A DNA stretch of 64,000 nucleotides from Isoetes taiwanensis. Taxonomy: Eukaryota; Streptophyta; Lycopodiopsida; Isoetales; Isoetaceae. Shown piece by piece: positions 46,651 to 64,000 of this stretch (position 1 is its first letter; each line of letters begins with the position of its first letter). The notes beneath the pieces were generated by a model that saw only the letters and a program-made list of their open reading frames with translations, searched no databases and was not told the DNA's origin. The translations under genes and the position numbers were made by a program. The stretch lies in NCBI GenBank assembly GCA_021234155.1, contig JAJEKV010000008.1, positions 10,160,740-10,224,739 on the forward strand. The letters are read 5' to 3'.

Positions 46651-46714
46651 TTGTGATGGATGAGAAAATTGGTAATGTCTGTTCTGAAAGCAAACTCGAG
46701 ATGCAGGATGACGG

Positions 46715-48326
46715 TGTGACGTTCCAAGTATTTATACGGTATACGTCTAGATATGTTGACACGTCACCCAGTATAGATACGCTACCATGGGGCATGGTAA
46801 CCTAGGGGGTTGACTTAAAAAGGATTAAATTAGCTATGCTAATTTAATTGTTAAAGATAATAACCTACATTTAAGGGATCATTATTTATAAAGGATAATT
46901 AAACTAATTATCCTTTGGGAACGCGCCACCTGGCCAAACCTGATTGGCCAGCATGGTGAATGCTATTTTAGACCCATAAGGTGGATCAGCACCCCCGTAT
47001 CCACCATAATCGACTGGAAATGCCTACCTTGGGATTGGTGAGCCACCTTGCCCAAGTACTTTGTGTGATCGGTGAGCATCGAGTTTTGAAGGATGGAGGC
47101 ACCAAAGCGATAGCGGTCGGCAGAATACAGGTGGGTGGCTAGTATAGGCTGATATTCTAGGGTAGCGCCCCTTTTGGGCACTTGTGTGTTGTCTTGTATG
47201 TTTCTCTGTGCTTTTATTCGTAGGAACTAACCCTTGGTTGAAAAGGTAAGTTCTCTTTATATTTTGATTCGGGTTTTGCTCTCAAAGGATGAATTGATAG
47301 TTCTTTGCTTAGTTAGCACTCCCGAGATGGGGGATTACGGGGGGGGTAGAGACCTCGAGCCCATATATTGTAGTATACTCTAGATAAAAGCCTGTATTAT
47401 TCCAATAATGCGGCCTATGCACAAGAACCCACCCGGGTCATAGATGCTATGGTACCGGGCTTACACCGGACAAAGGAACAGTGGTGGTGAAGTGGAGGTG
47501 GGGTCTTGCACCTAACATAAAGGCTCACGGGACTCCTATAGCGAGCTAGACCTGATAGCCGGTCACGTAGAGGGCCGGGTATGGGTCTGACACTCCCTGG
47601 GTGGGAAGGTGTGACCCGTATGGGGCACCTTGCACTTTGAGTAGATTTAGGGCGAGTAAGTCGGGTACGGATGCGGGGGTCGCTGATGCGGCACGTATTC
47701 TCTAGCTCGCCCATGGAGCCACTGTGATTCCGGAAGGGGCGCTTACGACCTGCCTCATCGGACCCGGGGCTTCATGAACCACGGAGTAGGCTCGGCGGGG
47801 TGATGCCTCGAGCTGCGTCTCAGGAAGGCTATAGCGGCGCCATAAGCGTGAATTGACCCATCCGCAAAGTGTGCACGGGAGGGCGGATGGAGTGGACAAC
47901 CCTAGCCAATGTTCTATGCCCGATAACGCCATGTCAAGATTGCGTCTGCGCACGATCTCTTGAGGCCTAGCCGTCAGTCGATCCTCATTGGAGTCTGAAC
48001 CGGGGTAGAACCATGGGTTTGGGGTGTTTTCTTAGGTTTAGATGCATATTCTTTGCCGTTGGTATTTGGATGGATATGCCACCCTTCGTGGTGGTTATTT
48101 ATATGTGATTTATCTTTGTGTGCTAACCCTTGTATTCACGCTTCATGACGTAGGGGAGCCCCATTGGCGTGGGCCGAATGACCCCTTCGTGTCCTTCTTC
48201 GGGCATCGTATTATAGATGGCCCGAAATAGACGGAGGGCCCTGCTCATGGCGAGTTGGTCGCCATGGGAGGGGAAAGTCCCCGTATGTATACGTCCGAGG
48301 GTCGTATATGTTCAGGGAGCGTCACA
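46715..48326 (+). repeat. 5' LTR (1612 bp) of a giant Ty3/gypsy element
   Basis: Starts TGTGACGTTCC and ends GGGAGCGTCACA, so the termini are inverted copies. A Met-tRNA primer binding site follows at once. Inside the LTR, AAGGATAATTA and TAATTATCCTT form a hairpin at about 46897-46921. The 3' LTR should lie beyond the right edge of the window; pairing with the polyprotein from about 59.7 kb is inferred from orientation and order. Confidence 0.75.
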
Positions 48327-48327
48327 G

Positions 48328-48339
48328 TGGTATCAGAGC
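48328..48339 (+). other. Primer binding site for initiator Met-tRNA
   Basis: TGGTATCAGAGC, one base after the LTR end. Confidence 0.85.
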
Positions 48340-48496
48340 ATGGTTCTGGGAAGCCAAACTATTGCACTGGCCACATACTAACTCGATAGATCGTTAGCTA
48401 GAGAGTGAGGATTTTGGAGTAGTATGAGTTTTTTGGGTGGTGTAATGGATGCGTCATGCTTGCTTTAAGCGTGGTCTAATTGTAATTAAGAGGGGT

Positions 48497-48712
48497 GTAC
48501 CGGTACCCCCCTAACCCTAAGTGGCGGGCGGGGGTACAGGGTGTCGGCGCCGTAAGTAGAAACCTCGGGGTAGGGGGTGCCCGCCACCTCGTAACAAAAA
48601 AAAAAAAAAAAAAAAAAAAAACCCTAACCCTAAGTGGCGGGCAGGGGGTACCGGACGTATTTGGCGCCCGGCAGCGGGCGACGTCGAGGAGTAGGGGGTG
48701 CCGCCACCTCAG
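48497..48712. repeat. Tandem pair of a 100-bp GC-rich unit split by an A-tract
   Basis: CCCTAACCCTAAGTGGCGGGC begins both units (near 48508 and 48621), and GTAGGGGGTGCC.GCCACCTC ends both. Between them lies a run of 24 or more A at about 48596-48620. Confidence 0.7.
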
Positions 48713-48987
48713 CGGCGCCCGATCACTTTTTTCATAAAAAGTTTTTAGGGTTAAAATTTTAAAAGTGACTTTTTCTTTCACTTTTCTTAAACACCTAGCG
48801 CCCTTTTGAGCTCCGCATGGCCGCCATAGCCGCCGGAACTAGAAGCTTCCCTCTGCCATAGCCAAACCTCGCCCCTTACCTTTCTCCCCCCCCAAGCCCA
48901 CCTAGCCTACTCTATAAGGATGGAGACACCCAAGCAAGTTTATCTGGCGTAAAGCCTCGCTATTCCAAAACCCCTATAGAGCTTATA

Positions 48988-49464
48988 ATGGCTGAATTGC
49001 TGCCACAACGAGAGACCGCCAGGTTTAAGACTGAAGAAATACTGGAGTATTTCGTGAAGCGCTTCTACGAAGGGGTCAGAATCCCATACCCGCTCTTTTG
49101 CTATAATGAGCGCTTTGTGTTCAAGCTCAACGCTATTCGGGAGACCTGCATAGTAGTGGAACAGGAAGATGGCGTCCAGAAGTATGCCCGGTTCTTTCCG
49201 CCAGCTAGGGATGATCAAGCAGAGGAGGAGGCCTTACAAACGCAGGCCCAGAACAGTTTGCAAATGGCCCAAGAGGCGGATCTGCAGTGGTTAGCATTGG
49301 ATGATCCGGCTTCAGGATACCGCTACCTAGGAAACGGCATGTGCCTCTTTGATGGGGGAGCCTATACTCTTCCATCGTTTTCATATGAAGAGGAGACCAA
49401 CCGTATCCTCTGGGAAGCCGGATCACCCTCGATTTCACGTGATCACTTCCAGCCGGGTCGTTGA
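48988..49464 (+). CDS. Unrecognised leader ORF of the giant gypsy element
   Basis: A 158-residue frame from ATG 48988, starting MAELLPQRETARFKTEEILE, with aromatic-rich middle segments (RFYEGVRIPYPLFCYNERF) and a glutamine/glutamate-rich stretch. No family is recognised. It is in the leader between the primer binding site and gag and is followed by the coiled-coil and histone-fold frames, so it may be the first part of one broken protein. Confidence 0.4.
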   Translation: MAELLPQRETARFKTEEILEYFVKRFYEGVRIPYPLFCYNERFVFKLNAIRETCIVVEQEDGVQKYARFFPPARDDQAEEEALQTQAQNSLQMAQEADLQWLALDDPASGYRYLGNGMCLFDGGAYTLPSFSYEEETNRILWEAGSPSISRDHFQPGR

Positions 49465-49531
49465 ACGAGACATGCAAGCTAATCCCCACGCTACTTCATA
49501 GAGCTTACAAGAAGAACTGAGATTAGAATAG

Positions 49532-49777
49532 CCAAAGAGAAGCAAAAGAGGAGCAAGCCACACCGGGCAAGTACGTAAGGCAACACAGCTTGATCTGAGG
49601 AGGTCGCTAAGCTTCGTGGAGGATACTATTCATCGCGAATGTGTAGAACAAGAGCAAAATCTGAAGAGAATGCAGGAAGAAGCAGAGGAAAGAGCAAGAG
49701 AGGCAACCGAAGCCGTGAAGGAGCGACTGAGGAAGGAAGAGGAAGAAAGGCATCGGCAAGAGCAACCACCGCTGTAA
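49532..49777 (+). pseudogene. Coiled-coil segment of the leader protein
   Basis: One open frame without an ATG near its start. It runs VRKATQLDLRRSLSFVEDTI, then a long charged helix (LKRMQEEAEERAREATEAVK...RLRKEEEERHRQEQ) and a stop. The composition is typical of a coiled coil. Frameshifts separate it from the frames on both sides. Confidence 0.45.
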
Positions 49778-49914
49778 GCCCGCCGGTTCCTCGCCAAGAC
49801 AAAAGAAGAGACACCCCAAAGATCCGGTGCTCAAAGATAAGGATCAGCTTTAGGGCTCGAGGAGGGGATCGCTAAGGTCTGCAGGGATAACCTAGGGACA
49901 ATATCATCCGGTGA

Positions 49915-50274
49915 AGCCCTAAGATCCCGAACAAAGCGGGGAAGACTCTACCCGAGCCGCACCCCAACCTAGGAGGAGGCATCGTTACAAGCCCCGGTAC
50001 CAGGTGGCACCGAGAGATAAGGAAGTACCGAAATCTAATCGAAGTTTACATTACGAAAACTTCCTTTCCAAATACCGTCCGAGAAATTGCCCAAGAATTT
50101 AAGACGGACCTTCGTTTTCAAACTCATGCCATCCTAGCACTTCAGGAGGCGGCCGAGGCTTACTTGGTGGCCCTCTTTGGCGATGCAAACCTATGTGCCA
50201 TCCATGCCAAGCGAGTAACCATCATGACAAAAGACCTACAGTTAGCACGCCGGATCCGTGGGGAACGGTCATAA
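49915..50274 (+). pseudogene. Histone H3-fold domain in the leader of the giant gypsy element
   Basis: A frame with no ATG in its first 100 codons runs from 49915 to a TAA at 50272-50274. From about 49996 it is histone H3: [23 protein letters not shown] (alpha-1/loop), [16 protein letters not shown] (alpha-2), and [20 protein letters not shown] plus RRIRGERS (alpha-3 and C-terminus). About 90 codons are uninterrupted, with no intron. In the neighbouring frame, RRRHRYK just upstream matches the segment before the usual PGT, so one indel separates tail and core. The alpha-N part ([15 protein letters not shown]) differs strongly from H3, which suggests a variant. The K4/K9 tail is not recognisable. 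It could be a retroposed host H3, or a domain the element has adopted. Confidence 0.85.
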
Positions 50275-51074
50275 TTATGTACATCACAATTTTGTATCTA
50301 TGTAAATCGGTATATATATTAATACAAAACTGTTTTGACTTCTTATTTTGAATTAACAAAGTTTAAAATGAAACGCACTTATTTGCTGCAAACGCACTTC
50401 AAAAGGAATCTTTGAAAGATTCCCTAAAATTCCCTTAAAAAATGCCCTTTTCTTGGTATATTTGTGACAAGTGTGACAATTTGAATATTTTAGGCACCAT
50501 TTTTGGAGGGGAATTTGAACTCAGCTTCCATTCAAAATTGTTTGGTACCATTTTTTGGCCCCCTAGTTTGGTTTGAGAAATAGTAATATTTTTAAGGACA
50601 AAACAAAATAGACATTGAAAAAAAAAGCGAAAAGCTAAGAGTGCCCAAAAACGTATTTAGTTCAAAGTTTATAAATTCAGTACAAAATTATGAACAAAAT
50701 TGCAAAAAATGCAACACATTTTGATATTGCCTCAATGAAGCAAATATTGTCACCTTAAAGTATGCCTCACACGCGAGGTGAAGTCGAAGATGCTTGCGCT
50801 TTGCTTTATACACTTGCTCTTATTTGCTCCTCCAGCTTGCTATAGACTTCTGTATACCGCGATGTCGACGTATGTATCCAATCTGGACTTTTTTAAACTT
50901 TGTAATTTATTTGTTCTCTGTAGTCTTTAGTTTCTTCCAAATAAATTTCAAGATGAAGCACAATTTCATTATATATGGACTTTCCTCAAGTCCATATATA
51001 TCTCAAATGGTAGCTACTGTCTAGAATACGGGGTTCTTATGAGCAAAACAATGGAATATGGTAGACTAATTCCA

Positions 51075-51172
51075 TTCAGAGGCATCAAAAGTAGGCGAAC
51101 CCAGAGCCTTCAAATGCTACGGTTTGTGAAAAGTAGGCGAACCCAGAGCCTTCAAATGCTACGATTTGTGAT
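51075..51172 (+). repeat. 49-bp tandem duplication
   Basis: AAAGTAGGCGAACCCAGAGC and CTTCAAATGCTACG.TTTGTG occur twice in a row with one substitution. Confidence 0.85.
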
Positions 51173-52300
51173 ATGAGCATATCCACGACATTGTGTTTTG
51201 TGCATAATATAATGAAGTACAACATTAGGATAGTAAAACTTTATACAAATTCATTGAGACACCATATAGTTTTCAAAGATCACATATAGCAATTGAAAGT
51301 AAAGCAAATCATTTGACAATATTAAAGCTTCAAATATCTAGTCGCGCATCATCTGACTGCGATTCCTCATCAGCTGGAACAATTTTTTGGGCGGGCTTTT
51401 CGCATCTGGGCTTTTTCTGGGATTAATGATCCTGTAATTATCCATGTAAATGTTAATGTCAAAGGAGATTATCAGTCAAAAGAAAAGAAAAGGGACGAGC
51501 AATAACGAAATTAGGTCACCGCCCTATTAACGACTAGCATCATATTTGATGACATTCAATGGTGTTATGGAAGTGTGATCTTAACGGGGCAATATGCATA
51601 TTTGCAAAACATTTTATTTAGCTAAGAAAAAACTCTTGCATAATTCAACGTCCAAGATTGATTAAGAAATTATCCAATGGCTAAACTCCTTAACAGGTAA
51701 AACCCTAATAGTAAATCACAGGTTCGAGCTATGGCGGCCGAGCATCACGATGTGGCGGCAGACTCAGGTATGGCGGTCAAGCTTCAAGCTTCAGGGGCGG
51801 GCCGAGCAAGCAAGCTTCAAGCTGCAGGGGCGGGCCGATCCTCAGGGGCTCTGCAAACAGGAAGAAGAAGTTCGCACAGAAGGAGGAGGATATAATCGTG
51901 GAGGTGCACTGTTAAGCTAGGATTCAAAGCTAGAGCAACGAAGTTTCTTCTTTTGGTTTGATCACAGGACAGAGTGCCGGATCTAGTCTTTGGAGCACAC
52001 ATCCTAATCAGTTTTCATGTTTAAAATAGCTGAATCTAAATGTTTAAAGCTAAGGCCGTGACTCTAAAGGCTACTGCGGTTTGAGCTTGATTAGTTTGTT
52101 TCTAAAGACATGTTCATTCCATAAAGCAAAACAGTCGGATCTAGGAGTTCCCGGTAGGATCCCACCAAGCTATTTGCAAGCTCCACCCGGATCCAACCCT
52201 TCGTCTTCGGCACGCATCGGGACCATCTGCTCTTGCTATAGTTGGTGAAAGCAGAAAAAACTTGAAGAAATCCTCCAGATTTTGCTAGAGATTCATTTGT
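51173..52300. other. Part of the inverted-repeat segment, no gene seen
   Basis: Non-coding apart from chance frames. A CAAGCTTCAAGCT..AGGGGCGGGCCGA unit is duplicated at about 51785-51840. Confidence 0.45.
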
Positions 52301-53324
52301 CTTCCTCAAGAGGATGTAAAGAAATAGATAAGAAGTTGCTCGAGCAAATCCGGACCACGACAAATTGAAGGCGCCCGCCCGATTTGTGTGCTCCACAAAC
52401 AAATCCGGAATTGCATTTGTGTGCTCCAAAGCAAATCCGACCCCTGACAAATTGGGCTCGCCAGATTTGTGTGCTCGAAGCAAATTCGCATTATTGTGAA
52501 ATTTGGCCGCCCGATTTTGTGTACTGAGCAAATCCAGACACAACAAATTGGCGCCTTGATTTGTGTGTACTGAGCAAATCCGCATAAAGACATAGGAGGA
52601 ATCAATTCAGTCACAATGGCCAAAAAAGAAATGGTACTGGAAATTAGGCTTAGATCTCTAATAGAAGGAAAAGTGCGCATGGACTGGAAATTGGGCGCCC
52701 GCCCAATTTAGATCTGTAATAGAAGGAAAAATGGGAAAAGTGCGCATGGACTGGAAATTGGGCGCCCGCCCAATTTAGATCTGTAAGAAAAATGCCCATG
52801 GAATTGTACTATAAATTGGGCGCCCGCCCAATTTAGATCTGTAATAGAAGAAAAATGCCCATGGAATTGTTCATAGTACAGGGAAAAACGTGCATGGAAT
52901 ATTGGGGGAATATTGGGGAAAGACCAATGGCAAAGACGAAATTGGGCGCCCGCCAGAAAGAAAAAAATATGCATGGAATATTGGGGCGGGCAAAGACAAA
53001 TGGGGTGGGCTCGAGTAGAACTCTTAAAAAAAAAGAAGAAAATATAATGAATAAGACAAGGCAATGGTCGTGTTGAAGGCAAAACAGAAGTTAGGAGGGC
53101 ATCAAATTGGGGCACCCCCTTCTAATGACAACCCAAAACAATGGAAGTTAAAGAGGGTTCCAAATTAGGCAACCCCCTTTCACTGATAGCCCAACCAATG
53201 CAATATTAAGTGAAAACTATACAACAGGAGTAAAAACACTAACAAAGGAGATATGTGCGCATATAAAGCAAGCAGAGGGAACAAAAACAGTAATATGGAG
53301 GATATGCTAACCTTTGATGGCATT

Positions 53325-53430
53325 GAACATGCAAAAACACCTCAAAAAGTCCTCTAGGAGATGGGCGCCTTCATGGGACATGCAAAAGCACCTCAAAAGT
53401 CCTCTAGAAGATGGGCGCCTTCATGGAGGA
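53325..53430 (+). repeat. Tandem duplication of about 53 bp
   Basis: ACATGCAAAA.CACCTCAAAA and GATGGGCGCCTTCATGG occur twice in succession. Confidence 0.8.
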
Positions 53431-53544
53431 GCAGATGAGGAGGAGCACGAGGAGGTCGCATGCATGAAGGACAAGTGGCATGCTCATAAGAAAAGGTCCA
53501 AGTTGGTGGGCCCATAATGCATGACATAGTAAACCTTAAAATTC

Positions 53545-53670
53545 GAAATAAAGTTGCCACATGGACCATTCACGTGGTTCTTGAGATTCAAAATTCAAAT
53601 TCAAATTTCCCCCCCTCAACTCAATAATGCGACGTGGACCATTCACGTGGTTTTTGAGATTCAAATCTCC
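53545..53670 (+). repeat. Tandem repeat with CGTGGACCATTCACGTGGTT
   Basis: Two units of about 75 bases each carry a (G/C)ATGGACCATTCACGTGGTT block with the dyad CACGTG, followed by TTGAGATTCAAA. Confidence 0.7.
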
Positions 53671-55099
53671 CCCTTCGTTCAATATTGCCAAGCACGAGCT
53701 ACTATTTTTTAGCATCTCGCCACCCGTCATTGCCGCTCTCGACCAAACTCTTTGCCTCTAAGGTATATTTTGATTTTCTTATTAACATGTCGGATGCGCT
53801 AGTGTAATGCGCTTTCATGATTTGCAATTCTAGAGTATGTAATGTCTAATAGAGCATTGATGTCCTTTCGTACCCATTTTTCTCTTTGGTTGAGTATTGC
53901 AGCATGCATTACCACACTGATGATGAGGTGATCAGACATACGCTTAGGCTTCAAGATGAGGTATGAGCTTTGTTGTTAAAATCACATAGTTAGTTCTAGT
54001 AGGGTCTAGATTAAGGATGTGTAATGCATGTATATCAATGATTTGTCATGCTACTAGCTTGGCTCAGACATAGAGCTTGTCAATGAGTAGGTAGACTTAA
54101 GCATAGAGGTAATCATGCTGCATGAGAAGTCCCCAGTTTTCCTTGTACAATGTGGCGGGGGCCCAATCTAGTGCGACCAAAAGGGGTGGGCCTTAGTCTG
54201 GAGCAATTAAATAGGGCGAGCCTAATTTGCAGGCCAAAAAGGGGCATCAAATTGGGCGCCCAATTTGAGCATGCAGGCCAACTCGAGCGGCATTTGTTTT
54301 TTTTTTTTTAAACCACAAATTGGGCGGGCGCCCAATTTGAAAAGCAGTTTTTTTTTTTTTTTTTTTTTTTTTTAAACCAAGTTTTGATATAATTTTTGGA
54401 TGTGTTTTGTGCTTGGAAATGAGGCGGACGCCCAATTTGATATGATATATCTTTCACTATTTTGCAGATACCGAGCTTATTGAAAAATGGACGTCTGATT
54501 TTAAATGGGTTTCTTACTAGGACAAGTCACATCCACCTCAGTAAGTCCCAACTTGCTCGTGTTGTTAAAGAGGTGTTTGAAGTCAAAGTGCGATTAACTC
54601 TAGGAGAGGCTAATTGCTCATTTATCCTCTGGAACTAAGATGATATCGTGAAATAGGTTGAGCAGGCACCCTCGAACCACAACCAAAGGCGGGTAGAAGA
54701 TAGTAACGGGCCACCAACATTAATCAGGTATAGTTTAATTCATCTAGAATGTGAAATATGGCATCTTGAGACACTGTACCTGCAGGAAGAGTGTCATATA
54801 CTTTACGGACTCGGATGTGTGACTAGTTTTTAGGATTGAAGACACGTAAGTGAAGGGTGCTTGACTATTTCATTATATATGGACTATTGCAATGCGAAAG
54901 CCATATGTGCCACCTTGGGCTATTGCACTTTGCGATGGGAAGGTACTTTTATTGAAGTTGGCCCCATCTATTCTTAGTATGCTGGCGAACTTGTGGTAAT
55001 ACCTTCATGGATGATGTTTATAATGGTGTGCCCTAATGATGTCTTTGCGCCCGGGCGTGGGTAGGATACGCTCTTGAAGAGCCCCAAATCCATGGATGA

Positions 55100-55327
55100 T
55101 AGAAAAGAGAACTTCGAGACTATCCAAGTGTTTGGGAGTTTGTCCTTATGAGCAACCAGGTGTACCCATCCAATTATGTCAACTGTTGAAATAAGAGATG
55201 GAGGCCAACGACTGCTAGTGACTGCATTGCAATAGAGACTATCGATTATGCTTGGGCTCCTTCCAATAAGAGGAAGCTCCTCAACACCGTGGAAGCATAT
55301 AAAGACTCATTTGGGGATGTCTCTTAG
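55100..55327 (+). other. Exon-like ORF inside the inverted-repeat segment
   Basis: A frame reads KRELRDYPSVWEFVLMSNQ, VYPSNYVNC, a TGA, then NKRWRPTTASDCIAIETIDY and AWAPSNKRKLLNTVEAYKD, ending close to a GTATG donor-like site. Only one stop interrupts about 75 codons. No family recognised. Confidence 0.3.
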
Positions 55328-55412
55328 GTATGAAAACTGTCATTGAAGCAAGATTTCCAAAAAAAGTCCATAAATTCAGGTATTGTCCAAAAATAATGAA
55401 ATTGTGCTTGAT

Positions 55413-55648
55413 GGTATAAATTTATACCTTAATAGATAGTAATATGTGGACATAGTATGCTAGAGAGTTCGCACGGTATAAATTTATACCGCAAGAAGAC
55501 TTGAGCGGTATAAATTTATACAACAAAAGAACTCGAGCGGTATAAATTTATACAGCAAAAGGACTCGAGCGGTATAAATTTATACCAATAAAGAGGACCA
55601 AGCGGTATAAATTTATACATAAAGAGTTTTCTCGGTATAAATTTATAC

Positions 55649-55712
<64 letters not shown>

Positions 55713-56595
55713 ATTATATAAATATATAATATATATATAACATATATATTTACATATATATATCCGAAAAAAAGAGAAGTCTTGCGGTATAAATCTATAC
55801 CGCGAGACTTCCTGCGGTATAAATTTATACCGTTTTTTTTTTTTATATATACAAATATGTGAACGTATATATATTGAATATATATATATATTAACATGTA
55901 TAAGTTTTTTATAGATATATATATACACAAAATATGTAGTCCAGGAGTATAAGTTTATATCGTGCAAAATCTTGTGGGGTCTTTCTTGCTCCCAAAGGTT
56001 TTGCAACTTAAATCTTGTTGAAATAACACACTCAAGGGATAATTTTATGCGTTTTTTCTTAGTTTTTTAGTTCAAAAAGTTCTAAAATAGTTCTAAATTC
56101 TCGACCTTGTAATGCAATGTTAGAGCATAAATTAGTCGAATCCGTTGTTATTTTTACTTTTTTTCTCTACACACATGCTAACTTCACTTTAGGCGACTCA
56201 AAAGCGCTTCTAAAGGCAAAGGACCCCAAAATGTTATGGATACACATGTGTTCAACGAGAAGGAAACTTCGTGGTTTGTCCATAGGGGTGCGAGGGTAGC
56301 AACCCCTCAAAAGTTTACCTATTTCTTTGCAAAGGACAAAAAAAGCAAGATAGACAAATACTTCTCTGTGGAGAAATGTGCGATGGCATGCCAATCGCTA
56401 CGAGATGATGGATTGTCTTTGAAGACTCTCAACATTGACAAGGAGCTTGACTATCTTCTCAACATCACTATATTGTGGATTGGTATTGTGCAAGCCCAAA
56501 GACATGATGAATACATCTCCGAGAACAACAAAGAAGGCCATGTAATCACAGAGCTTCACTACTTCAACTACTGTTTCCTCGGTATAAATTTATAC
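55413..56595. repeat. Eleven copies of the palindrome GGTATAAATTTATACC
   Basis: Copies start at 55413, 55475, 55507, 55539, 55571, 55604, 55634, 55786, 55816, 55945 (degenerate) and 56581. Five are full perfect 16-bp dyads; several extend to CGGTATAAATTTATACCG. Copies two to seven are spaced 30-33 bases apart with related spacers (GCAAAAGGACTCGAGC type). An (AT)n tract lies at 55652-55707. The last copy sits inside the exon-like frame at 56192-56622. Confidence 0.95.
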
Positions 56596-56622
56596 GACAT
56601 CGTCAGTTGGAACTTCAACTAA
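56192..56622 (+). other. Exon-like ORF inside the inverted-repeat segment
   Basis: After an acceptor-like TTCACTTTAG, a frame runs to a stop at 56622 and contains NVMDTHVFNEKETSWFVHRG, KIDKYFSVEKCAMACQSLRD and LDYLLNITILWIGIVQAQRH. Composition looks like a real protein C-terminus, but no family is recognised. The palindrome copy at 56581 encodes its GINLY. Confidence 0.35.
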
Positions 56623-57275
56623 CTGCATGATTTCGTGGATGTATTATCATTTGTAATACCATATGATGCAAAAACAATAATTTTTCATTCAAGCAGTTTG
56701 TTCAACTGTCTCCCAATGTCTTTTAAGGTCAATTAGGATGTTTAGCCAAAATGGTTGTGAAATAACAAATTTTTTGTCTTCTATAACAGCCAATATAAAC
56801 GTTCTAAGGGATAAGATACAAAAGCGTCTAATTTTTTCATATGAGTTTGCCCCATAATAAATCTTTGGCTTTCGTAGTGGTCCTTTTCCCCTCTAAAATG
56901 AGATATTTTTCTTTGTTGTTCTTCTCCTTAATGTTAAGTCTTCCTAAAATGTCTGTTTTCATGAGCAGTTTTATAAATCTTTAGACACGAGATAGTAAAA
57001 GAGTCCTTTTTAGGGGTATTTTAGAATTTTGTAAATTTTTAGAAGGAATCTTTCAAACGCACTTCTTAAATAAGTGCGTTTCATTTTAAACCTTGTTAAT
57101 TGTGAATTTTCCTACAATTAAAAAATAAAAATAAAAATAACTGAAAAAAAAAAGAGAGATGATGAGCTGGCGCCTCGAACGCCGTGCCCAGCAAGTTAAA
57201 TACTCAGATTCATTTTTAGGGTTTCATCATTTCTTACTCCTGTTTCCTTCTTCCTCCCATCTTCCGCCTGCAGTG

Positions 57276-57764
57276 ATGGACTACGTTGGCCGACTAGCAT
57301 GGTACATGGGAGGCGAGCAATGGGATCCCCAGGTTCCTTACCCTCTCTTGGATCCTATGTTGCAGAGTTCAGTCGACCTCATCGATAATATGCGCGCCCA
57401 CCCTGACTATGCGACCTTTGTAGAGTTCTATGATGAGGAAATATTGCCGGAAGCGGAATTCTTTGGGGAACCGCCCCAACCTTATCTTCACAGAGATATT
57501 GTGGAGCATATGTTGGGAGATGATTGCCACAGCTATGACATCCTCAAGGGCATCATCAGACGTGCTAAGCACGCTCCCATTATCGATTGTGGCTCTAATG
57601 GGCTATACTTTGAAGCCCAGTTTGCCCTTGCTCTTATTATGGACAGGTATGTAGATGAATGCGACACCGCTTTAGAGCAAGCTAAGGCCCCACTTCCTCG
57701 AGATCGAGGAGGAGGATGGCAGATAAACTTTGCTGATTTTTATGCGATGGAAGGAGTTAGCTAA
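57276..57764 (+). CDS. Unrecognised ORF of the giant gypsy element, part 1
   Basis: Frame from ATG 57276 to the stop at 57764, directly after a CGCCTGCAG acceptor-like site. It encodes DYVGRLAWYMGGEQWDPQVP and, later, MDRYVDECDTALEQAKAPLP. Acidic, with no known domain. It lies between the inverted-repeat segment and gag, on the same strand. Confidence 0.4.
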   Translation: MDYVGRLAWYMGGEQWDPQVPYPLLDPMLQSSVDLIDNMRAHPDYATFVEFYDEEILPEAEFFGEPPQPYLHRDIVEHMLGDDCHSYDILKGIIRRAKHAPIIDCGSNGLYFEAQFALALIMDRYVDECDTALEQAKAPLPRDRGGGWQINFADFYAMEGVS

Positions 57765-58047
57765 AGAGAGGCCTTTACCTCGTAGTAAGGGCCAAGCACT
57801 TGTGGGATTGAGTTAAGCTTGCTACCATCAAGGTTGGGGATCGGGATTACTTGCTGTGGCGACATTCAATGGGCGTATCGGCATATCGCCAATAAGGGTA
57901 TGAGAGGACCGCTCACCTTACGTATGAGCTGGCGAATATTGTCGAGGTCAGCATGATTTCATTGATTACTCTCGCCCCAATTATGCGCCCGGAGATACAT
58001 CAGCTGCTCAACTATCAACCTCACGGATGTTGAGCCTATCAACACAC

Positions 58048-58452
58048 TCTTGTCCTTGCGCCCGATTAATGATTGAGGTACCCCATCTTCGGTTCACGAA
58101 TCGGCTTTCCGAACTTCTGGGGCCACATGTGCCCAACATCAACGGCGTCGTCGTCGTCAAGCTGGAAGACGACCCAACCATGGAGGATTTATGTGATGAG
58201 AGTCAGTATGCTCAGGAAGAGAAGGATTTTGCCATGGAGGAGGAGCTGCCCCGAAACTTGGAGTCCGAGTTGGCCTCTTCAACCCATCCGATGGTTCAGG
58301 GGTTGAAATGCCATATTACTCGATTCTTCCTGTCGGCTTTCACAAGCAGACAGGTTCTCTTCTTTGCTAAGGCAATTGCCCCTGAAGCGGTAATTTGTAT
58401 GGGCATTAAGGGCACTTTCCACCACAGCGGGCCACAAGAAATTAGCTCCTAA
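58048..58452 (+). CDS. Unrecognised ORF of the giant gypsy element, part 2
   Basis: A frame with VPHLRFTNRLSELLGPHVPN and the acidic DDPTMEDLCDESQYAQEEKD. No family recognised. Stops separate it from part 1; a shared ancestral gene is possible but not shown. Confidence 0.3.
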   Translation, partial: SCPCARLMIEVPHLRFTNRLSELLGPHVPNINGVVVVKLEDDPTMEDLCDESQYAQEEKDFAMEEELPRNLESELASSTHPMVQGLKCHITRFFLSAFTSRQVLFFAKAIAPEAVICMGIKGTFHHSGPQEISS

Positions 58453-58935
58453 CCTTGAGCAGATCATCCTAGTGAACCGCGACCTTGCCATTGCAGTGTT
58501 TGACCATGAGATTGGTTCTTGGATAAACATGAGTCTGCTGGTTGCGGCGCCATTGGCTACAAATGTTCCTCCAGAAATAGCTTCATCAGCTGCCTCATCA
58601 GTTAATCCTAGCATGTTACTCCTACAGCATCGACCAGAGCCCCAGTTTGATACTCAACCACAAGATGTTGACGGATCGACCTCTTAGTTTTAGGTTTCAT
58701 TGGGTCATCGTATGAAATTTTGTTAATTTTGATTGGCATTACCTCTAGTGGGCCAACACCAAAATCTATGTACTGTTTTCAATTTTATATATATTCAGGA
58801 TATCTTCTTCTGTTTCTTGCACTGTTGAAAATCATTCCATTGTTTTCTCCTTTCAATGATTAATTATTTTCCTTAAAGCTCGAGTGGAAGGAAAGTGTTT
58901 TCAATGTATATATAATTATTCCTGTCGTCTTGCAG

Positions 58936-59350
58936 AAGAAACACTTGAGGAATACCAAGACAAGATCACCGATCTGATAAGAATGGATGAACAGGGACCT
59001 CCTGAACAGGATTATGGGGAACGGTACAACGAGTATCCTGAACGGGAAGTTGACGTGGACATAGCGGAGCTTAGGGTGCCGGAACAACCTTACGATCCTG
59101 ACAAGGGCATGGAAGTAGTTACTCTTCTTCGAGAACGTGCTTACGATGATCTGAGATGGACTCTTTCCCGTACTTGGGATTATTGGAATATGACCCCACA
59201 TCAAGCTTTTGATGATGCTAATGATCATCTCTGGCAAATCTTTCACGCCTTTGCGAGGCTCTTCAACCTTCCGATTATTAGCTCCCCACTTGGGATTATC
59301 AACCCGTTATTATCGGGCTTGGGGCACGCTACAAGCTCGTCGAGAGCTGT
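58936..59350 (+). CDS. Unrecognised exon-like ORF of the giant gypsy element, part 3
   Basis: Follows a good acceptor (CGTCTTGCAG). The frame reads EETLEEYQDKITDLIRMDEQ, an acidic DVDIAELRVPEQPYDPDKG, and then RTWDYWNMTPHQAFDDANDH. A donor-like GTGAGAG lies near 59353, and an acceptor-like TTTAATATAG at 59663 leads into the frame that precedes gag. A spliced pre-gag gene is possible. Function unknown. Confidence 0.35.
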
Positions 59351-59663: not shown

Positions 59664-60540
59664 AGGCGTTACGCAATGCCGCTGGCGAGACACCCTCAAA
59701 CGCCGATTCGGTTAACACCGAACAAGAATTGATCTTCGATGAAAAGACGGTTAGGCTGAATTACGGGCCCACGTCTTGCATGCTAACCCACCACGGCATG
59801 TACAACGGGGCCTTGCCGGAGTTACCTCCGTTACCACCTAGTCCACCTACACGGTAGCCGTCCCCACCACGAACTAGTCACTGTACGCGTAAAGAGGTCC
59901 CCTCTAAACGCCCGGAGCTCCTCTAGAGGCGATTGCCACCTCTTCAAAAGTCGCCCCAGTGTCAGGTCATCATCAGCATCATCCCGGTGGCCATGCAAAG
60001 CTGGGGATAAGGAATACCGCAAGGCAGTTGATCTGACCATAACTAGTATATGGAAGAATAGGAAATTGGCCGTTTTTGATGGGAAATCTAGAGGCGGCTT
60101 TGAATGCCGAATCAGGCTGACCCGAAATGAAGGAGTTCGCGGGTCCTATGGCATGACAGAGAAGGATACGAGAAAGGTTGCCACCACAAACCTTACCGGA
60201 GCTGCCCGTATTTGGTGGAAGGGCTATGCGAGCCAAACATATCGGACAGGAGTAGATGCAACTTGGAAAGTTTGCCAAGGCCTTCAAATCGCATTATGTG
60301 CCTCGTGCACATAAATGCCAGCAGATCCAGACTTTCTACGGTTGGGCGAGAAGAGTATGTCTGTATGAGGCCTACGGATGAGTTCATGCGCTGAGACCGT
60401 ATGTACCTGGTATGAATGAGAAAAGGGCGGTGGAGGGCTATATTGAGGGTTTGGCACCATCGATCAAAGCGGATGGTTAAGGCCATCGACCCAAATCGAT
60501 CGATTCTGGCGAGGCTAAAGCATTGAGCCTCGAGGAGGAC
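59664..60540 (+). pseudogene. gag of the giant Ty3/gypsy element
   Basis: The first part (59664-59860) encodes EQELIFDEKTVRLNYGPTSC and a proline-rich stretch interrupted by a TAG. From 60066 the frame gives MAVFDGKSRGGFECRIRLTR and KVATTNLTGAARIWWKGYAS, the capsid pattern of gypsy gag proteins. Frameshifts follow near 60130 and 60260. A degenerate zinc knuckle (CYRCM...AGHFMR, with an indel) lies at about 60775-60815. Gag would form the virus-like particle around the RNA. Not functional as it stands. Confidence 0.8.
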
Positions 60541-60953
60541 ATACCAAGAAATCAGTATCCACGTCCTGCTCCTTACTCGCAGCCACGGCCGTCCACACCG
60601 TACAAACCCCGCTCTCCAAGTCCGGGGCCCTCGCTTGCGTGAGAACTCTTACGGTCGCCCGGGAGAAGAAAGTCGCTTTAACACGCCGGATAAGCGGAAC
60701 AATGCGGGTAAGGAAGTTGAAACCTCTTTGATCCATTCCTAAAGAGGCCAGAGAACAATTTGCGGGATAAGGCATGTTACAGGTGTATGAGGCGGGACAC
60801 TTCATGCGAATTGCCCATATGTTACCGGGACGCCCTTGGTGGCCATGGCGACCTTTGGGGCGATATTGAGTCAACATTACTGGCGGCGAGGGCGCTCCGA
60901 AAGTACATTCACAGTGCGTCTCATATCCTTGCGGCTATAGAAACCGGCAATCT

Positions 60954-61450
60954 TTGAAAGTCAACCTCTTTGTCATTTCCACCATAGGCCAAATAGGCGG
61001 TAAGCCTTTTGTAATTCTTATGGATACGGGGAGTACACATAATTTTGCTTCTCCTAGAATGGCCCAGGTCCTCCAACCTGGAAACCCTAAGGTCACGACC
61101 AAGAGACCTGTCACTTTAGCCGATGGTAAGGTTAGACATACTCATGGTGCGTCGCATCAACCTTAAGATGCGGTTACCCCAGCGCACCGGTTGCTATGGG
61201 TGCGAATTAATGGATATTGGCAAATCGACCTCATTGTTGGAATGGAATTCTTGGCATCTGCAAAAGCCAACATAGGCTGCGAGAGAGAAGTTACCTTCAA
61301 CGCGGATAATGGAGCCGATGTAACTATAAAAGGTGAACCATTCAACCCTATCATGCGATCTATGTCCATTCGACGGTTAGATAAAGCTATACGCCAAGCA
61401 AAAGCTCCTCGCCTTATTAGACTTGCTTCCATTGAGTCAGGAGGCTAAGC
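60954..61450 (+). pseudogene. gypsy protease region
   Basis: The frame at 60954 encodes GKPFVILMDTGSTHNFASPR; the catalytic DTG codons are at 61023-61031. The following frame (61191-61448) has LIVGMEFLASAKANIGC, the second conserved protease region. A stop near 61166 and a frame change separate the two. The enzyme would cleave the gag-pol polyprotein. Confidence 0.85.
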
Positions 61451-61619: not shown

Positions 61620-62826
61620 TCCCCAGAGTTGGCGAGCTTAAGAAGCAACTTCAAGAGCTGCTAAACCTAGGTTTTATTTGACCTAGCGTTTTGCCCTTTG
61701 CGCCCTATTCTTTTGTAAAGAAAAGGACGGCTCCTTGAGAATGTGTATTGATTATCGGCAACTCAACAAGCATACCATCAAAAATCGCTATGCTTTGCTG
61801 AGAGCAGATGATCTAATGGACCAGTTGCAAGGGGCCAAATATTTTTCAAAGATTGACCTTCGCTCGGGATATCATCAGATAAGGATTAAAGAGGAGGACA
61901 TCCATAAATCTGCTTTTCGCACTAGATATGGGCATTATGAGTTTACCGTTATGCCTTTCGGATTAACTAATGCCCCCCATAGCGTTTATGCGGTTAATGA
62001 GCGATGTTTTCCGACAATACTTGGATGATTTTGTTGTCATTTTCTTTGACAACATTCTCATCTGATAAGACTCTAGAAGAGCATGAGAAACATCTTAAAT
62101 TGGCCCTACAAAAGTTAAGACGTCATCAGCTATTTGCCAAGTTCTCTAAGTGCAAGTTTGCCACTCCAAAGGTTGACTATTTGGGCCATATCATTTCTGC
62201 AGAGGGAATTGCTACAGATCCAGCAAAAATAGAGGCCGTAAGGGAATGGCCTATTCCAGAAAATGTCTCCGAGGTCCGAAGTTTCTTGGGATTAGCGGGA
62301 TACTATCGAAAGTTTGTAAAGGATTTTGCAAGGATTGCAGCACCTCTTACAAACCTTACAAAGCATGAGAAGGTGAAGGATTGGATGGAGCACTGGAAGA
62401 CTAAGGTTCAGGGAAATTTCCAGCAGCTTAAAGATGCCTTAACCTCAGCACCCGTTCTCACGTTGCCCGATCCTGATAAGGATAAACTAGTGGCCACAGA
62501 TGCAAGTAAAATCGCCACTGGTGGGGTTCTAATGCAGGAGGGGAGGGTTATTGCTTATGATTCAAAGAAGATGAACGAGACGGAACAGCGATACCCTACC
62601 CATGATCAAGAGTTGTTAGCTGTTGTTCGCGCCTTGCGAATATGGAGACACTACCTCCTTGGTAGAAGATTCCAGTTGGACACGGATCACCAAAGTCTCC
62701 GTTATTTATCCACCCAACCGAACCTCAACCTCCGTCAGAGGAGATGGATGGAATTTCTTGAAGAATATGATTTTGAGATCATGTATAAGCCTGGAAAGCA
62801 CAATGTGGTTGCGGATGCATTGTCAC
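61620..62826 (+). pseudogene. gypsy reverse transcriptase and RNase H
   Basis: The frame 61735-62028 encodes [32 protein letters not shown] and [13 protein letters not shown] frameshift precedes the active site YLDDFVVIF (codons at 62018-62029). The 62004-62858 frame continues with the thumb ([30 protein letters not shown]) and RNase H ([35 protein letters not shown]). The end of RNase H (VVADALS) is cut by the hAT MITE at 62827. Small frameshifts make it inactive, but the motifs are well preserved, so the copy is fairly young. Confidence 0.93.
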
Positions 62827-63316
62827 CATGGAAAAAATTAGTGGCTAAACTTAGCTAAATGGCGAAATTTTGGCCTTGTTTGGAAAAACATTGGCTAAAC
62901 TATGGCCCTTTTTGGGCTAAAAAAAATAAAATATTAGCCAAGTCTATTTCACGCCCCACCTCCATTTCGTCCGACTTTAGCTAATCGCAAGAAAGTGTAA
63001 CTGCCAAAATTTGGAAAGTGTAGCCAAAGCTTAGAAGCTTTTATGTCAAATTTTAGTGTAATTTAGCCAAATTGTCCTATAGCCTTTATATTTATTATGG
63101 TCAGTTAATATTTAGGTCTTGAATTAGTGCAAAATAGTCAAAAGATAAAAGATTTTTGTTTTTTTTAACAAAAGTTTAGCCAAACGTAAGAAAGTACAGG
63201 TGGCAAAATTTAGAAAGTTTAGCTAAACATTAGAAGCTTTCACCTCAATTTTTGGCATACTTTAGCCAAGTCTATTTTACCACTTTGAATATAAAAGTTC
63301 CTTAATTTTTTCCCTG
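62827..63316. mobile_element. hAT-type MITE, 490 bp, with 8-bp target duplication
   Basis: The left end CATGGAAAAAATTAGTGG and the reverse complement of the right end, CAGGGAAAAAATTAAGG, form the inverted repeat. The 8-bp duplication ATTGTCAC is exact at 62819-62826 and 63317-63324. The interior is non-coding with many TTTAGCCAAA-like blocks. An 8-bp duplication and CA.GG ends fit the hAT superfamily. It interrupts the gypsy polyprotein between RNase H and integrase. Confidence 0.92.
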
Positions 63317-63317
63317 A

Positions 63318-64000
63318 TTGTCACGCCATCCCTCGGTAACCCGAACCCATTGTAACGCAATTTCTACACTCACCAGTGAGTTTGGGAAACAGATAGAACA
63401 GACTTTGGCCACGGATCCCGAGTTTTGTGAAATCTGGGCTAGTTTGAGTAAGGAGGCACGCACTGATAAAGAACGCGAAGCTTTCCGTTCATATAAGAAA
63501 GAGGGCAATTTGTTGTATCACAAGGATAAGTTATGTGTACCTCGACTTCGGTGCGTAAGTTAATCCTCCATGACACGCACAACTTGACCCTATAATTTGG
63601 ACATGCGGGTTTTATGAAGACCTATTTTAAAATCCGCTCTAGTTACTTTTGGCCTTCCATGAAGAAGGATATTGCTAGATACATTAAGCGTTGTCAAGTG
63701 TGTCGACAAACCAAAGGCGGAGCAACTAAGAGTTCGGGAGAGCTGCAGCCTTTGGATGTGCCCCACGCAAAATGGGAAGTAATAACCATGGATTTCATTG
63801 TGGGCCTTCCACGAACTCTCCGTGGCTATGATGCATTAATGGTGGTCGTCGACAAATTGTCAAAAATGGCTCACTTCTTGCCATGTCATTACCCGCAAAC
63901 GAACGCTTCGACACCGCCTTGCTTTTCGCAAAGGAGATCTTCGGTTTTACCGCGGAATGCCACGGGTTATTGTATCCGGCGGGGATCCCAAATTTGTAAG
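63318..64000 (+). pseudogene. gypsy integrase, cut by the window edge
   Basis: The frame resumes after the MITE with SRHPSVTRTHCNAISTLTSE. A frame change near 63563 precedes the zinc-binding half (GHAGFMKTYFK...RCQVCRQTKGG) and the catalytic core (VITMDFIVGLPRT, MVVVDKLSKMAHFLP). Where SDRDPKF is expected, the text reads SGGDPKF, so the second catalytic aspartate looks lost or frameshifted. The rest, and the 3' LTR, lie outside the window. Integrase would insert the cDNA into the genome. Confidence 0.88.

Follow-up and report, generated by a model that had tools for sequence, protein, structure and literature searches.

A Ty3/gypsy chromovirus of Isoetes taiwanensis carries a host-derived histone H3 fold in an additional ORF upstream of gag

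We analysed a stretch of 64,000 nucleotides of the Isoetes taiwanensis genome (hereafter the window; G000:C1089:10160740-10224739), and searched the genome it comes from (1,658,258,908 bases, 1110 contigs). The downstream part of the window holds an LTR retrotransposon that continues past the window end (Table 1). The initial annotation, made from the window sequence, had called this element giant. Its span is indeed long (~20.4 kb, from coordinates), but 6,743 bp of that span are a nested insert; the element proper measures ~13 kb. The element is a Ty3/gypsy chromovirus. An LTR pair, a 5-bp target duplication and a primer binding site (PBS) are present in the window copy and in three others, with GGAAA, ATTTG and AAAGT as the target duplications around these three, and the PBS is presumably of the initiator-Met tRNA type. 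A purine-rich stretch lies 5' of the 3' LTR in the window copy, C1018, C1025 and C1034; in the LTR comparison C928 and C952 were represented by partial LTR ends only, and the LTR pairs of C1068, C1080, C996 and C1038 were left out. Pfam Ty3_capsid, Retrotrans_gag, RVP_2, RT_RNaseH, Integrase_H2C2 and rve were matched in copies C1080 and C1068, and across copies the genes follow the order gag capsid, protease, reverse transcriptase (RT), RNase H, integrase. The integrase ends in a chromodomain (Pfam Chromo 8.2e-10, copy C1018), which tblastn recovered in the window copy and in 8/9 other copies, with stops or heavy decay at four of these nine places, and did not find in copy C996. Judged against the chromodomain consensus, some of the aromatic cage seems to be missing from this domain.

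Table 1. Features of the retrotransposon copy in the window.
Feature	Position	Strand	Basis or remark
5-bp target duplication GACGG, 5' end	46710..46714	.	Partner after the 3' LTR, beyond the window, L031:3154-3158
5' LTR, TGTGACG...CGTCACA	46715..48326	+	3' LTR at L031:1527-3153, beyond the window, 91.0% identity
Primer binding site TGGTATCAGAGCA	48328..48340	+	Sequence reading
ORF1, broken in this copy	48920..50274	+	One frame, 432-455 residues, in nine other copies
Open piece, ORF1 N-terminal domain	48862..49464	+	No Pfam family above cut-off
Open piece, coiled-coil-like ORF1 stretch, Glu/Arg/Gln-rich	49532..49777	+	ORF list, copy alignment
Open piece with H3 fold	49915..50274; fold ~49990-50271; end is the natural H3 C-terminus	+	ORF list, Pfam, structure match
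Nested 6,743-bp insert, terminal inverted repeats ~30 bp, between ORF1 and ORF2	50355..57097	.	Foreign to the element
ORF2 relic (MDYAGRLAWYMGGEQWD...)	57141..58690	+	No Pfam family; other copies have a single frame of ~460-500 residues
Gag and protease relics; protease 60870-61166	59787..61166	+	Copy C1080 has matches to capsid, zinc knuckle and protease
Reverse transcriptase and RNase H pieces	61687..62858	+	Pfam RT_RNaseH in the window copy
Integrase pieces, continuing past the window end	63318..64000	+	Chromodomain at L031:585-908

Where ORF1 is intact it forms one frame from its likely start (nine copies measured), in which an N-terminal domain of ~190 residues is followed by the coiled-coil-like stretch, a linker and an H3 fold that runs to the natural H3 C-terminus. 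The window copy is broken into three open pieces in reading frames 1, 2 and 1. An intronless frame in this copy had been read as histone H3, lying on the sense strand between PBS and gag, and both statements are borne out: the piece of 119 codons plus stop encodes an H3 fold (Pfam Histone 7e-31; best solved-structure match H3.3, 9e-39), and it lies 3' of the LTR and the PBS. It had further been placed behind a coiled-coil frame and an unknown 158-residue frame; this order stands, the latter corresponding to a piece of 200 codons, but the frames are not separate, being parts of one broken ORF1. The strongly diverged alpha-N region described at the outset proved to be decay of the window copy, as this region is nearly plain H3 in most other aligned copies. 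In C1034, ORF1 holds a complete fold from alpha-N to the C-terminus (Pfam Histone 5e-42; H3.3, 7ux9, 2e-51). The ORF1 alignment drew on 39 scanned loci, of which 37 contained an H3 frame of 110 aa or more; after five duplicates were dropped, 32 were retained.

Outside its histone part, a Pfam scan of ORF1 yielded no family above cut-off, and viral contigs scanned with the ORF1 N-terminal frame gave eight pattern matches and no confirmed relative. The AlphaFold model of the N-terminal frame of the window copy has a mean pLDDT of 38.2, too low for use. ORF1 is followed downstream by capsid, protease, RNase H and integrase, all of them separate from it. A canonical H3 tail is not detectable in the linker: when eight copies are compared with the host tail, 44 to 229 of 500 shuffled sequences reach the observed score. 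The motif TARKSG is present in the ORF1 linker of some subfamilies, where the full tail alignment is not significant.

The initial annotation left two possibilities, a family that carries H3 in general or a retroposed H3 in this copy only. In nine other copies that we fetched, picked for their long H3 frames, the order LTR-PBS-ORF1(H3)-gag-pol recurs 9/9 times (interrupted by gaps or insertions in some), gag-side similarity restarts ~110-200 bp past the H3 end, and a 3' LTR match is found in 8/9. Because these copies were chosen by H3, the coordinates of six genome searches were crossed as well. Each search scored at most the best 150 of 2,393 to 29,150 first-look candidates, making the counts lower bounds, and the crossed count excluded 15 host H3 genes, one further host place and the places listed by a separate search with an H3 from a second family of H3-bearing ORFs (family B). 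Among the matches listed, the genome contains at least 319 distinct element H3 places. An H3 place lies within 15 kb upstream on the same strand for 51 of the best 150 RT matches (median ~5.1 kb); the corresponding controls gave none downstream on the same strand, none upstream on the opposite strand and one downstream on the opposite strand. H3 is likewise found upstream of 56/89 listed ORF2 matches, rising to 72/89 when either H3 or the ORF1 N-terminus is accepted, and within 4 kb of 83 of the best 150 ORF1 N-terminal-domain matches, including 34 of the top 40. For 99 of the best 150 RT matches and 67 of the best 150 N-terminal-domain matches no H3 place is among the matches listed, which is no proof of absence; H3-less relatives of the family may exist. 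The family reading is supported. For the window copy, the lone-retrocopy reading is refuted by the 5-bp duplication, which flanks the whole element, and by the in-frame fusion of H3 to ORF1 in other copies. Many H3-bearing copies are broken; 35 of the best 150 places in one search and 50 of the best 150 in another (overlapping sets, counted by hand) lie in frames of 400 aa or more whose H3 match is free of stops.

As for the source of the fold, 15 full-length host H3 genes were found in the genome, 97-99% identical to a typed plant H3.3; the lowest of them scores 273 bits, and the element copies and similar places that follow start at 193 bits. Two of the 15 genes were read as host reference. 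Over residues 39-135, 12 family A and 2 family B element sequences share 82-90% identity with host H3.3, and 13/14 align to it free of gaps, L047 being without residues 43-46; L053 has a stop before the fold and was used neither here nor in the RT/host dN/dS comparison. V89I, G102A, T107A and I124L occur in 14/14 sequences of both families, E105G in 13/14 and S86T in 12/14, again across both. Position 87, the one residue separating the two host genes within the stretch compared, is His in 12/12 family A sequences and in host H3.3, Ser in the other host H3 and Phe in 2/2 family B sequences. This comparison indicates that the element H3 derives from canonical plant H3, either host H3.3 or a near twin. 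Given the derived residues common to families A and B, one capture is the simplest reading, and the saturation of silent sites between element and host implies that it is old; a single old capture of H3 by the element lineage would fit best. We are nearly certain that the H3 is element-encoded and was captured from the host.

What sets CENH3 apart is extra residues inserted in loop 1 and a sequence that has diverged strongly from H3. The element H3 has no loop insertion, and the centromere link that had been considered early on finds no footing in a fold so collinear with host H3.3. An origin from CENH3 was judged unlikely from this collinearity and identity, as an indirect comparison. Family B (L053-L055) is also distinguished by Ala at position 125, beside the Phe at 87, and all of its best 150 places (150/150) have 95-100% protein identity to one family B H3.

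A check of dN/dS across copies had been suggested with the first reading of the locus, and it sets the fold apart from the rest of ORF1. In ten long ORF1 copies, taken from the 32 retained, pooled pN/pS is 0.055 for H3, below the other ORF1 parts (0.18-0.29): 0.180 for the coil, 0.293 for the linker and 0.201 for the N-terminal domain, where the partly out-of-frame or unrelated N-terminal parts of L015 and L045 raise dN. The RT core, whose frame was sought in eight copies and used from five, gives 0.034 over 120 codons. Two family B copies differ by a dS of 0.79 and a dN of 0.007. The method (NG86 with path averaging) is crude here and inflates dN at the divergence of the element; the two host H3 genes differ at 1/97 residues, yet NG86 yields 16 nonsynonymous differences between them, so that all ratios are approximate and those for H3 probably overestimates. 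Among copies, silent sites are near saturation and the H3 fold is almost unchanged. These data argue that purifying selection preserved the fold as the element diversified. The element therefore seems to need its H3, and in our judgement the captured domain is very probably useful to it.

How could a retrotransposon use a histone? Mobile elements are known to read histones via chromodomains and to capture host genes, and the H3 fold functions paired with H4. The 14 element sequences retain the positions that we take to mediate the main contacts with DNA, with H4 and with the second H3, barring changes in individual copies (R40H in two, Y41F in two, and R63W, K115R and D106N in one each). Pairing with H4, the kept contacts and the undetectable tail together lead us to read ORF1 as a tail-swapped H3 that would join host H4. 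ORF1 would pair with host H4 through its H3 fold, and the kept DNA, H4 and H3-H3' contacts would allow it to be built into nucleosomes or H3-H4 tetramers. The N-terminal domain and coiled coil would then occupy the former position of the histone tail, from where they could tether the particle or integration complex of the element to chromatin. Our best overall explanation, that ORF1 enters nucleosomes or tetramers together with host H4 while its N-terminal part ties the element to chromatin, has by our estimate a probability of about 0.42. Its parts differ in strength: binding of H4 by the fold is likely, entry into nucleosomes has slightly better than even odds, and tethering as the main benefit of H3 to the element is tentative. 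Chromatin targeting by ORF1, raised as a possibility from the start, is plausible. With the integrase chromodomain the element already owns one chromatin-linked part, and the seemingly incomplete aromatic cage would leave room for another.

A bolder version of this reading, which we consider doubtful, is a selfish histone variant, in which nucleosomes with tail-swapped H3 would form the element's own chromatin, available for docking and impossible to mark via the normal H3 tail. If true, the element H3 would let a retrotransposon dock on its own chromatin and dodge host silencing marks. An H3 fold under near-histone constraint in a retrotransposon suggests an element that writes itself into nucleosomes, which makes it directly testable if selfish DNA is able to use a histone of its own to enter chromatin or to build it. 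ORF1 moreover offers a natural H3 tail swap, maintained over long evolution.

Other uses of the same protein can be envisaged. Escape from silencing might be the whole benefit: tail-swapped ORF1 nucleosomes on element or target DNA would make the usual tail marks impossible, so that heterochromatin is escaped. A nearly unchanged fold with no detectable canonical tail before it, in the first ORF of the element, would suit this idea, but TARKSG in the linker of some subfamilies resembles the H3 lysine-9 context (the alignment as a whole being not significant), and we regard it as unlikely. ORF1 might instead act outside nucleosomes, merely binding free H4 or the chaperones of H3-H4, which might help it into the nucleus or disturb host chromatin assembly. 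The residues facing H4 and chaperones are indeed kept, but so are the DNA-contact residues, which would be superfluous for a decoy, making this use improbable. Similarly improbable, in our view, is that ORF1, together with host H4, is the element's private packaging protein, coating its cDNA in a nucleosome-like manner inside particles or the nucleus. An upstream ORF of the abundant type, separate from the capsid-bearing gag and combining a coiled coil with a DNA-binding fold, would be apt for such packaging; host H4 would, however, be required inside the particle, and the fold retains surfaces that are perhaps needless for packaging alone.

The remaining alternative is that the captured H3 is useless to the element, or a retroposed H3 in the window copy only. 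The H3 frame is intronless, and captured H3 copies in fungi were often inactivated (PMC6710886). Against a mere passenger stand the same position of H3 in 9/9 other copies, the strong constraint despite near-saturated silent divergence, and the frames of at least 400 aa, stop-free within the H3 match, at 35 and 50 of the best 150 places; this alternative is hardly credible.

Host H3 was captured by hAT DNA transposons of Dothideomycete fungi (PMC3538342, PMC6710886), with 26 H3-like genes in Pyrenophora tritici-repentis (PMC3538342) and 784 copies in Pseudocercospora fijiensis, where all element copies are inactivated by RIP (PMC6710886). Within the literature covered, the fungal capture is the closest precedent for the Isoetes element, as in both a mobile element captured host H3 and then multiplied it. 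In the fungi a DNA transposon carries the H3-like gene as a separate gene, whereas the Isoetes H3 is fused to the end of ORF1 in an LTR retrotransposon; and unlike the RIP-inactivated copies of P. fijiensis, it has a replaced tail and a strongly constrained fold. A fungal-type hAT capture was considered for the Isoetes locus itself and rejected, since the H3 sits between the LTRs of a gag-pol element and no transposase match was obtained among the proteins scanned.

Orchid Ty3/Gypsy elements carry an ORF for an AlkB-type RNA demethylase whose enzyme is active in vitro (PMC9289625). There, too, a plant Gypsy lineage fixed a host-derived domain in an additional ORF; domain and host differ. Chromoviruses, the chromodomain-bearing Ty3/gypsy elements, have been surveyed in lycophytes (PMC2864245). 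The Isoetes family shares their gag, protease, RT, RNase H, integrase and integrase chromodomain, and differs by adding ORF1 with the H3 fold and ORF2 before gag. In having an extra sense ORF beside gag-pol it resembles plant LTR retrotransposons with additional ORFs (PMC7264820). Chromodomains and the histone variant H2A.Z have been described to guide integration (PMC12477314). The word "histone" is absent from the main text of the review on additional ORFs (PMC7264820), of the Isoetes genome paper (PMC8566536) and of a review on giant transposons (PMC6431247), and in the open-access literature, with subscription papers mostly outside its scope, we found no report of a histone-bearing retrotransposon.

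Several further features accompany the element. The nested insert, missing at the equivalent site in 9/9 other fetched copies, has inverted terminal repeats AACAAAGTTTAAAATGAAACGCACTTATTT with one mismatch and AATT on both flanks, and looks like a DNA transposon by these termini. Inside it, at 55464-55874, an array of units is built around the palindrome GGTATAAATTTATACC and adjoins a long AT run. The leader 5' of ORF1 (48500-48720) contains two similar stretches with CCCTAACCCTAAGTGGCGGGC and a poly-A run between them. ORF2, which matched no family in a Pfam scan, is the second extra ORF before gag and is also found at L041:3578-5080 (minus strand). Between ORF2 and gag lies a conserved short frame (RLADEGLEEYEERITDQ...), at 58860-59306 in the window and at ~6576-7172 in C996 (L045). 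A splice-acceptor-like stretch is located 5' of this frame; the frame may be an exon, in which case the upstream ORFs may be spliced.
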